This document shows, in pieces, positions 14,385 to 31,200 of a DNA stretch of 32,387 bases; position 1 is the stretch's first letter; each line of letters opens with the position of its first letter. The translations under genes were made by a program, and so were the position numbers. A model generated the notes under the pieces. It did no database searches. It was not told the DNA's origin and was given only the letters and a program-made list of their open reading frames with translations. Origin of the DNA: Flavobacteriaceae bacterium (lineage in GTDB: Bacteria; Bacteroidota; Bacteroidia; Flavobacteriales; Flavobacteriaceae); the NCBI GenBank assembly GCA_024643385.1, contig JAHEMZ010000031.1:1-32387 (forward strand), in the 5' to 3' direction.

Positions 14385-14413
14385 TGCTCACAAAGTTCAA
14401 TAACTTACTGAAA

Positions 14414-14524
14414 TGTTATCAAGAAAGGTGGAGGGACTAGACCCGTTGAAACCTTAGCAACCCTTAGTGCAAAACTAAGAAGGTGCTACATTCTACACCA
14501 CAAATTTGTGGATGATAGATAACA
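14414..14524 (+). promoter_or_regulatory. SAM-I (S-box) riboswitch, copy 1
   Basis: Clear S-box core: TTATCAAGAAAGGTGGAGGG, then ACCCGTTGAAACCTTAGCAACC and AAGGTGCTACATTC. P1 is TGTTATC (14414-14420) with GATAACA (14518-14524). The P3 region is the short CTTAGTGCAAAACTAAG hairpin and P4 is CCACAAATTTGTGG. After P1 comes a 7-bp hairpin, CCAATTC/GAATTGG (14530-14549), with no T-run, so termination control is not evident and the output may be translational. It precedes a transsulfuration-family gene and homoserine dehydrogenase, the expected context. High SAM should lower expression. Confidence 0.95.
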
Positions 14525-14647
14525 ACGACCCAATTCTTTCCGGAATTGGTAGTTTACATTCTTTATAACATTTTTCTGTAAAATACGTCCTTAGACGCAT
14601 TTGACTTTGGGTTTTTCAATTAACGTTTAACTCAAAAAACAAGAAAA

Positions 14648-18571: not shown

Positions 18572-18597
18572 TCCCAGTTCATTAACTTTTTGAAGGC

Positions 18598-18701
18598 GTT
18601 ATCAAGAAAGGTGGAGGGAATAGACCCTTTGAAACCTTAGCAACCCTTTGTCATGCAAAGAAGGTGCTACATTCTATCCGATTTACATCGGAATAGATAA
18701 C
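18598..18701 (+). promoter_or_regulatory. SAM-I (S-box) riboswitch, copy 2
   Basis: The core is nearly identical to copy 1: TTATCAAGAAAGGTGGAGGG, GACCCTTTGAAACCTTAGCAACC and GAAGGTGCTACATTC. P1 pairs GTTATC (18598-18603) with GATAAC (18696-18701), and P4 is ATCCGATTTACATCGGAT-like. Ten bases before the metH ATG is a separate hairpin, GTCTAA-ATAAA-TTAGAC (18746-18762), which could belong to a translation-level expression platform; no T-run terminator is seen. It controls homocysteine methylation genes, the canonical target. Confidence 0.95.
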
Positions 18702-18772
18702 AACAACTAAGGAAACTCTCCTCACTTTTGGTAATCGCTGTAAATGTCTAAATAAATTAGACCCTGAATAGT

Positions 18773-29048: not shown

Positions 29049-29078
29049 TTTGTTGTTTTAAAGTATTGTTTACATTAG
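29049..29078 (+). promoter_or_regulatory. pheA operon promoter
   Basis: TTTG (29049-29052), 18 bp, then TACATTAG (29071-29078), one mismatch from TAnnTTTG; the spacing is the same as in the metK promoter. The predicted start near 29085 is just upstream of the leader-peptide ATG at 29096. Confidence 0.6.
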
Positions 29079-29095
29079 CAACCATAAACAAGACA

Positions 29096-29167
29096 ATGCA
29101 CACATTTTTTACTTTTTTCAACTTTTGGTTTTTTTACTTTTATGGAAAGTACCGGGTTGTATTGTAA
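29096..29167 (+). CDS. pheL: Phe-rich leader peptide of the pheA attenuator
   Basis: A 23-codon reading frame whose product begins MHTFFTFFNFWFFYFYGK. It contains eight phenylalanines, three tyrosines and one tryptophan, a composition otherwise seen in attenuation leader peptides such as enterobacterial PheL. Phe codons lie at 29105-29140, mostly TTT with one TTC. The peptide has no likely function of its own; ribosome stalling on Phe codons when charged tRNA-Phe is scarce is the signal. The CGG GTT codons at the end coincide with strand 2 of the attenuator, and the TAA is at 29165-29167. The gene name is used by analogy only. Confidence 0.85.
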   Translation: MHTFFTFFNFWFFYFYGKYRVVL

Positions 29168-29221
29168 TTAATGAAACATTAATAAATATAGAACCCGGAC
29201 ATAACATCCGGGTTTTTTTTT
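29135..29221 (+). promoter_or_regulatory. Transcription attenuator of the pheA operon (terminator/antiterminator pair)
   Basis: Four elements are present. Pause hairpin 1:2: TACTTT (29135-29140) with AAAGTA (29146-29151). Strand 2, CCGGGTT (29152-29158), is exactly complementary to strand 3, AACCCGG (29192-29198), giving an antiterminator whose loop contains a TTAATG-AAA-CATTAA hairpin (29168-29182). Strand 3 also pairs with strand 4 (29207-29214) in the terminator. A ribosome stalled on Phe codons leaves strand 2 free and permits read-through; one that reaches the stop codon at 29165 covers strand 2 and lets the terminator form. The mechanism is inferred from this geometry. Confidence 0.85.
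29192..29221 (+). terminator. Attenuator terminator hairpin
   Basis: AACCCGGA (29192-29199), loop CATAACA, TCCGGGTT (29207-29214), then a run of T to 29221. It lies 20 bp before the pheA ATG, so it can only act as a leader terminator of the pheA operon. Confidence 0.9.
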
Positions 29222-29240
29222 GTCATTTAAAACATAAAAT

Positions 29241-30110
29241 ATGAAAATTGCTATTCAGGGGATTGAAGGTTCCTTCCATGATGAAGCCGTTCAGAAGCTG
29301 TTCCCCAATCAGAGTTTAGAATTAGTAATGTGTGATTCCTTTGACGGGGTGACGGAGAGTGTCAAAAAGAATAAAGCCGACTTTGGGGTTTTAGCCATTG
29401 AGAATACCATTGCGGGATCAATTTTGCCCAATTATAACTTGGTCGAAGCCGGTGATTTTGAGATCATTGATGAGGTGTTTTTAAATATTCAAATGTATTT
29501 GATGGCTTTGGAAAGTGAATCTATCATTGATATTTTTGAAGTACATTCTCATCCAGTGGCTTTGTTGCAATGCCGCGATTATCTAAGGAGATTTCCGCCT
29601 CAATTTAAAATTATTGAGGGAAAAGATACCGCCAGTGAAGCAAAGCGGATTCGTGAAAATAATTTACAAGGGGTTGCCGCTATTGCCGGAAAGCAAGTCG
29701 CCAAGCGATTCGGACTAAAAATATTGGATAGCAATATCCAGGATATGAAAGAAAATCAAACTCGTTTTGTGCTGATTGGAAAACGAGGCGCAACGTTAAG
29801 CAAGAAAACACCAAACAAGGCTACGATGAAGTTTCAATTAGGCCATGAGGTGGGAACTTTAAGTAAAGCGCTACAAATAATGGCTGCGAATGAGATTAAC
29901 CTTACTAAAATTCAATCACTTCCTGTTACGGGAACACCCTGGAGGTATGCTTTTTTTGTGGATGTAACTTTTGAGGACCCGGATAGATTCTATGCAGCGG
30001 TTGAAGAATTACAGCCATTCGTAAAAAACTTTAAAATACTGGGCGCTTATGCGCAAAATCGAGAAAATATTCCAAGTAAATTAACTAGTGTATTGCAGGA
30101 TGGAGAATAA
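29241..30110 (+). CDS. pheA: Prephenate dehydratase
   Basis: Converts prephenate to phenylpyruvate, the last common step before phenylalanine. The 289-residue protein has the PDT catalytic domain (about 1-182: IQGIEGSFHDEA, GVLAIENTIAGSI, and the TRF motif T174-R175-F176) and a C-terminal ACT domain (about 195-275). The ACT motifs that bind Phe read GTLSKAL (205-211) and QSLP (225-228) in place of the usual GALV and ESRP. This variant looks common in the phylum but may weaken feedback inhibition. No chorismate mutase domain is attached, unlike the E. coli P-protein; that activity is supplied by the next gene, whose ATG overlaps this stop region by 11 bp. Confidence 0.95.
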   Translation: MKIAIQGIEGSFHDEAVQKLFPNQSLELVMCDSFDGVTESVKKNKADFGVLAIENTIAGSILPNYNLVEAGDFEIIDEVFLNIQMYLMALESESIIDIFEVHSHPVALLQCRDYLRRFPPQFKIIEGKDTASEAKRIRENNLQGVAAIAGKQVAKRFGLKILDSNIQDMKENQTRFVLIGKRGATLSKKTPNKATMKFQLGHEVGTLSKALQIMAANEINLTKIQSLPVTGTPWRYAFFVDVTFEDPDRFYAAVEELQPFVKNFKILGAYAQNRENIPSKLTSVLQDGE

Positions 30111-31200
30111 GAAAGAACTAAGAAATTGGTTGAACCAGATGAATTTGGCTCACCCATTGGTGATAGCAGGGCCTTGTAGTGCCGAGACAGAGGAACAGGT
30201 GCTTACCATTGCTCACGCTTTAAAGAAAACAGACACAACGGTATTACGAGCCGGAATTTGGAAACCCCGAACTCGTCCCGGTAATTTTGAAGGAGTGGGA
30301 GCCTTGGGATTGAAATGGTTGCAAAGGGCCAAAGAAGAAACAGGAATGTTAACAACCACGGAGGTTGCAAATGCTCATCATGTGGATTTGGCGCTTAAAC
30401 ATGATGTGGATATCTTATGGGTAGGTGCGCGGACTACCGTTTCGCCTTTTATTGTTCAGGAGATTGCAGATGCGCTCAAGGATACCGATAAAATTGTGTT
30501 GATCAAAAATCCCGTGAATCCCGATCTGTCCCTTTGGTTAGGAGCGGTTGAACGCTTTTATTCGGCAGGTATTCACCAATTGGGGGTAATCCACCGTGGT
30601 TTCTCCACTTACGAAAAAACGCGTTATCGAAATAATCCTGAATGGCAAATTGCGATCGATCTACAGAATCGTTTCCCTGATCTGCCCCTCATTCTCGATC
30701 CTTCTCATATTGCGGGAAGAAGAGATATTATATTTGATCTGTGTCAAACAGCCTTAGATTTAAATTATGACGGAATTATGGTTGAAACACACCACGATCC
30801 GGACAATGCCTGGAGCGATGCGAGTCAGCAGATCACGCCCGATACATTAAAACAAATGACGATCGATCTGAGAATTCGAAAGGAAGTGGGAGATGCTGTA
30901 GAATTCAATAATAAACTGGCAACACTTCGAACAAAGATAGATGTTATCGATCATCAGTTGATTGAGATTCTGGGGAAAAGAATGAAGATAGCTGATCAAA
31001 TTGGGGAATTAAAGCGAGCCAATAACGTTGCCATTCTGCAATCGAAACGTTGGAATGAGATCCTGGGAAGAATGATTCTCGAGGGTGAGGAACATTTGCT
31101 TAGTGAAGAATTTATTTTAAGAATTTTTAAAGCAATTCACCAAGAGTCCATTAATCATCAAAAGAATACGGTTAGTTTGGAAGAAAAAAGCCTGCAATAG
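30100..31200 (+). CDS. Fused DAHP synthase (KDO8P-synthase type) / chorismate mutase
   Basis: Catalyses both the entry step of the shikimate pathway (PEP + erythrose 4-phosphate to DAHP) and chorismate to prephenate. In 366 residues the N-terminal DAHP synthase barrel spans about 1-260 (VIAGPCSAET with metal ligand C26, the KPRTRPGNFEG substrate loop, LIKNPVNPDLSLW, DPSHIAGRRD), and the C-terminal AroQ-type chorismate mutase spans about 270-350 (LRTKIDVIDHQLIEILGKRM, IGELKRANN). Bacteroidota commonly carry this fusion. I start at 30100, where MENKKELRNW begins; an ATG at 30088 adds four residues. Translation is probably coupled to pheA through the 11-bp overlap. The stop codon lies in the terminator loop. 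Confidence 0.93.
   Translation: MENKKELRNWLNQMNLAHPLVIAGPCSAETEEQVLTIAHALKKTDTTVLRAGIWKPRTRPGNFEGVGALGLKWLQRAKEETGMLTTTEVANAHHVDLALKHDVDILWVGARTTVSPFIVQEIADALKDTDKIVLIKNPVNPDLSLWLGAVERFYSAGIHQLGVIHRGFSTYEKTRYRNNPEWQIAIDLQNRFPDLPLILDPSHIAGRRDIIFDLCQTALDLNYDGIMVETHHDPDNAWSDASQQITPDTLKQMTIDLRIRKEVGDAVEFNNKLATLRTKIDVIDHQLIEILGKRMKIADQIGELKRANNVAILQSKRWNEILGRMILEGEEHLLSEEFILRIFKAIHQESINHQKNTVSLEEKSLQ

Follow-up and report, generated by a model that had tools for sequence, protein, structure and literature searches.

The DNA analyzed here, hereafter the window, is a stretch of 32,387 nucleotides from a member of the Flavobacteriaceae whose assembly comprises 2.68 Mb in 126 contigs and is 94% complete. 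Judged by pheA, its nearest named relatives belong to the same family (e.g., Halomarinibacterium, Aureisphaera, Aureitalea, and Altibacter). The features around this gene are the following:

29050-29078, + strand: putative promoter, with TTG at 29050, an 18-nt spacer, and TACATTAG at 29071-29078 (read from the sequence)
29096-29167, + strand: leader ORF encoding MHTFFTFFNFWFFYFYGKYRVVL, followed by a stop codon (read from the sequence; comparison of homologues)
29119-29151, + strand: possible strand 1 or pause hairpin region (tentative; partially conserved)
29152-29158, + strand: strand 2, CCGGGTT, within the final codons of the leader ORF (exactly complementary to strand 3)
29190-29221, + strand: intrinsic terminator formed by strands 3 and 4 (predicted by folding; a terminator-like stem with a T-run in 113 of 114 leaders of the family)
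29192-29198, + strand: strand 3, AACCCGG, common to the antiterminator (2:3) and the terminator (3:4) (sequence and co-variation)
29208-29214, + strand: strand 4, CCGGGTT (read from the sequence)
29241-30110, + strand: pheA, encoding prephenate dehydratase with a C-terminal ACT domain (Pfam)
30100-31200, + strand: DAHP synthase fused to chorismate mutase (Pfam DAHP_synth_1 and CM_2)

In the pheA product, Pfam recognizes the prephenate dehydratase domain (PDT, PF00800; E = 2e-53) and, slightly below the cut-off, the ACT domain (PF01842; E = 5e-6). The next gene had been read in the first-pass annotation as a DAHP synthase/chorismate mutase, an assignment upheld by Pfam. Its start overlaps the end of pheA by 11 nt, and the two genes are therefore probably co-transcribed. 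Because of this overlap, it is also plausible that the charging of Phe-tRNA sets the flux into the aromatic pathway.

The leader ORF runs from an ATG at 29096 to a TAA at 29165-29167, and its 23 codons include eight for Phe, three for Tyr, and one for Trp. When both strands of the 32-kb window were scanned for ATG frames of 10-45 codons and aromatic residues were counted per 12-residue stretch, this leader was the only frame with at least eight aromatics per 12 residues. Upstream of it, TACATTAG differs at one position from the flavobacterial -7 box TAnnTTTG, whose position in the promoter is taken from a study of Flavobacterium psychrophilum (PMC9723704, 2021), and transcription would be expected to start near 29083. 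Of 113 homologues, 102 have a TAnnTT[TA]G box in the 60 nt before the leader ATG, as opposed to 8.6% of shuffled sequences.

The stem of the terminator, AGAACCCGGA/TCCGGGTTTT, pairs 29190-29199 with 29207-29216 around a loop at 29200-29206, with a fold energy of about -13.5 to -13.8 kcal/mol. It leads into nine T residues (29213-29221), which end 19 bp before the ATG of pheA (29241). Taken by itself, the 2:3 pairing has a more favorable energy (-18.5 kcal/mol) than 3:4 (about -13.5 kcal/mol); in the lowest-energy fold of the entire leader, the 3:4 stem is present. The same is predicted in 21 of the 23 leaders whose whole-leader folds were examined.

Much of what the first-pass annotation had described at this locus stands. 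The coordinates of the 23-codon frame and its count of eight Phe codons agree with the sequence, strands 2 and 3 are exact complements, the promoter-like pair with its 18-nt spacing is present, and the terminator with its nine T residues precedes pheA, with 19 bp rather than 20 to the start codon. The pause hairpin fared less well. Within the window, TACTTT (29135-29140) can indeed pair with AAAGTA (29146-29151), and CAAC (29119-29122) with the GTTG that ends strand 2. In 18 close leaders, however, these strand 1 candidates keep 69% and 78% of their pairs; all six TACTTT/AAAGTA pairs are found in only three of the 18, and the CAAC/GTTG pairing is likewise incomplete. The hairpin was therefore dropped as a defining part of the element, given its poor conservation among close leaders.

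Other regulatory elements are found elsewhere in the window. Three SAM riboswitches exceed the Rfam cut-offs (1205-1264 on the - strand; 14413-14525 and 18596-18703 on the + strand), one being a SAM-II and two SAM (S-box) aptamers. Both S-box elements lie upstream of apparent sulfur-amino-acid genes, which from their ORF translations read as a trans-sulfuration-type PLP enzyme and a methionine-synthase-like protein. In addition, ilvD, whose likely start is 1571, has a terminator-like hairpin with a T-run (1340-1370) some 200 nt upstream. In two relatives, L175 and L173, a short Ile/Val-rich ORF (MNQNCSAIVIIIITGPPR; MSTPVNTVISSITVIC) stands before a terminator of this type, a layout suggestive of a branched-chain leader attenuator, apparently degenerate in the window.

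For comparison with relatives of the window, regions upstream of pheA were gathered from 23 named genomes and about 110 others of the family, which gave 119 distinct regions. An ATG frame with at least six aromatics in 12 residues occurs in 114 of the 119. At the stricter density of at least eight in 12, the proportions are 108 of 119 for the real regions and 0.08% for dinucleotide shuffles. The motif FNFWFFYF is nearly identical in close relatives and gives way to TYYNWFYFFFSKRNEALYV or YFWNGFYFYFFFKRGTGLL types farther off; in the wider family, Phe and Tyr change places freely and the aromatic content is maintained. At the nucleotide level, the Asn-Phe-Trp codons AACTTTTGG (29120-29128 in the window) are invariant, third positions included, in 18 of 18 close leaders (alignment A1).

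The first-pass annotation had called the peptide Phe-saturated and had proposed aligning the region upstream of pheA in other Flavobacteriaceae. The alignment bears out the leader and goes against the refuting outcome that the annotation had named (homologues with neither the frame nor the 2:3 and 3:4 complementarity): an aromatic mini-ORF persists in nearly all homologues, and strands 2, 3, and 4 co-vary. Its description of the peptide fits the window, with eight Phe among 23 codons, but not the family as a whole: overall, the leaders consist of 24% Phe, 13% Tyr, and 3% Trp, with Trp present in 84 of 114. As their codons read, this is a family of aromatic leaders (Phe and Tyr, often with one Trp) rather than of Phe leaders only.

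Beyond the family, a phylum-wide sample was considered. All 11 loci besides that of the window with a pheA E-value of 2e-56 or better have aromatic mini-ORFs; five belong to Flavobacteriaceae, another five to different families within its class, and one (L151) to a family outside that class. At one locus outside Flavobacteriaceae (L153), the best frame is unusually distant from pheA (-357). None of the 18 more distant loci in this sample has a frame at a density of at least six. The aromatic mini-ORFs that precede pheA in six Bacteroidota genomes outside Flavobacteriaceae, the feature examined at these loci, suggest that the leader may reach past the family.

Strand 2, although it lies inside the coding frame, changes together with strand 3. 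When strand 3 was permuted among genomes (2000 permutations, ignoring kinship), the 2:3 complementarity fell from 17.75 with the own-genome partner to 13.27 with permuted partners (sd 0.30; maximum 14.3). Six types of strand 3 core were distinguished (CCCGG, TCTCG, TCCCG, TCCTG, TTCCG, and GCCCG), and each fits its own strand 2 best. On the pheA tree (39 typed rows), the core type changes at least six times; even two sister loci, L040 and L042, differ in core type, and the strand 2 of each fits its own strand 3. In the 18 closest leaders, RNAalifold finds no co-variation, because the 3:4 pairs hardly vary and the stem is nearly invariant. The co-variation signal comes only from more distant relatives.

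The position of strand 2 relative to the aromatic codons is also constrained. In a search of the entire ORF for the segment that pairs best with strand 3, that segment began 12-14 nt past the first base of the final aromatic codon of the run in 77% of leaders, as opposed to 42% (maximum 48%) when permuted strand 3 sequences served as control. The final Phe codon of FFYF begins at 29138 in the window, 14 nt upstream of strand 2. A ribosome with its A site on the final aromatic codon should have its leading edge at about this distance. A test of 2:3 pairing at fixed offsets gave only a weak peak at offset 11 (4.42 pairs out of 8 vs. 3.80), because clades differ in the register of strand 2. Strand 2 is placed so that a ribosome stalled at the aromatic codons would leave it exposed and a ribosome at the stop codon would cover it, as attenuation demands. 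This analysis establishes the ORF and the pairing strands, together with their conservation, co-variation, and spacing.

These observations bear on several other explanations of the locus. The simplest is that an ordinary terminator precedes pheA and that the Phe codons merely reflect T-rich DNA, with no regulatory leader peptide. Phe is indeed readily encoded by T-rich DNA. Moreover, when RNA model R1 was run against the window's own genome, the pheA leader was the only convincing match; the matches beyond it were mostly terminators alone, the next best (L137) being a terminator downstream of another gene and devoid of a leader. However, dinucleotide-matched shuffles almost never yield such frames, FNFWFFYF is kept, and Tyr, Trp, and Asn codons are conserved in the same frame as those for Phe. 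Together with this conservation of the frame, the co-variation of strand 3 with a strand 2 inside the ORF effectively refutes the explanation, to which we give hardly any credence.

It might also be supposed that the RNA senses Phe or tRNA-Phe directly, as a riboswitch or T-box type element, and that the ORF is incidental. T-box RNAs are known to regulate aromatic genes in Firmicutes. At the leader, however, no Rfam family, T-box and riboswitch families included, has a member at either the gathering or a relaxed threshold, alignment A1 contains no conserved aptamer-like structure outside the terminator, and what is conserved is a run of codons followed, at ribosome distance, by strand 2; direct sensing is thus highly improbable. 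No more probable is an arrest peptide, whose nascent chain would halt the ribosome upon sensing a small molecule rather than through tRNA charging. That close relatives strongly conserve NFWFFYF, and with it the invariant AACTTTTGG, would be expected of such a peptide, yet in the family at large Phe and Tyr exchange positions freely and the aromatic content is what is kept. In addition, the layout would induce the operon when charged tRNA is low, which is the sign expected for a biosynthetic operon.

The sequence evidence leaves little doubt that the leader is a ribosome-mediated transcription attenuator controlling the pheA-DAHP synthase/chorismate mutase operon. From it we infer where transcription starts, that the leader is translated, that the ribosome stalls on it, that transcription terminates, and that the operon responds to amino acids; these steps would be connected as follows. 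RNA polymerase would start near 29083, and a ribosome would begin the leader peptide. When charged Phe-tRNA is plentiful (as well as Tyr-tRNA, in the family at large), the ribosome would reach the stop codon at 29165 and cover strand 2; strand 3 would then pair with strand 4, the terminator would form, and transcription would end near 29221. When aromatic tRNA is uncharged, the ribosome would stall in FFTFFNFWFFYF with its leading edge just short of strand 2, so that strands 2 and 3 could pair, no terminator would form, and the operon would be transcribed.

The mix of aromatic codons may be related to the genes that accompany pheA. In the window's genome (assembly 94% complete), no match was found to prephenate dehydrogenase (tyrA), and an aromatic amino-acid hydroxylase homologue (Phe-hydroxylase) is encoded at G000:C90:5335-6141; Tyr may therefore come from Phe. 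Of 80 sampled relatives, 28 have no tyrA above the family cut-off; the pheA clade of the window accounts for 27 of these. Genomes with tyrA mostly carry it 1-2 kb downstream of pheA. Where the locus of a tyrA-less relative is long enough, DAHP synthase/chorismate mutase directly follows pheA. The hydroxylase is found in 25 of the 28 tyrA-less genomes vs. 30 of the 52 others (Fisher p = 0.005). Most genomes of the window's pheA clade thereby share the combination seen in the window's genome, a hydroxylase and no tyrA. The Tyr share of Phe plus Tyr in the leader is 0.28 in the tyrA-less group, which includes named loci placed by clade and not one by one, and 0.41 in the others (Mann-Whitney p about 1e-7). 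These p-values overstate the evidence, because the loss of tyrA was probably one event on one long branch. The sole tyrA-less genome outside the window's clade (G294) has a Tyr-rich leader (L102). The association between tyrA loss and a Phe-biased leader is suggestive only and probably mirrors one evolutionary event. It is conceivable, though we would not count it as probable, that the Bacteroidota pheA leader acts as an integrated aromatic sensor whose codon mix is retuned to the products of the operon and becomes more Phe-biased after loss of tyrA, with Tyr presumably supplied via the hydroxylase. If so, the codons of the leader would follow the end products made by the operon.

Whether a flavobacterial version of this leader had been described was left open in the first-pass annotation, and in part it had. 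In F. psychrophilum, the region upstream of pheA, that is, the same gene in the same bacterial family, contains a structured element that is conserved in other genera of the Flavobacteriaceae and has no Rfam match, and the same study presented strong clues that leader-peptide attenuators precede amino-acid operons (PMC9723704). The main text of that study contains no pheA leader sequence, strand assignment, co-variation, Phe/Tyr mix, or tyrA content. In the papers searched, we found no earlier report of the strand-level co-variation, the ribosome spacing, the Phe/Tyr/Trp mix, or the link to tyrA, part of which the supplements of PMC9723704 may hold, and no literature on a pheA attenuator in Bacteroides. 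The present work adds a sequence-level case for aromatic leader-peptide attenuation across the Flavobacteriaceae, which are bacteria without Shine-Dalgarno sites.

Among well-known systems, the closest is the leader of enterobacterial pheA. There, pheL is a short Phe-rich ORF with alternative 2:3 and 3:4 hairpins and a terminator directly before pheA, all of which the flavobacterial leader shares. It differs from its enterobacterial counterpart in that the flavobacterial leaders mix Phe and Tyr, often with one Trp, and in that the flavobacterial operon carries DAHP synthase/chorismate mutase. The Rfam family of the enterobacterial leader (Phe_leader, RF01859) scores 23.9 bits here, below its gathering cut-off of 55. 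The tryptophan operon leader is likewise a case of ribosome-mediated attenuation; it follows the same general logic with a different amino acid and different genes, and its family (Trp_leader, RF00513) scores 20.7 bits against a cut-off of 41. The mechanism is a textbook one, and the leader is a well-conserved Bacteroidota version of it rather than a new type of switch.
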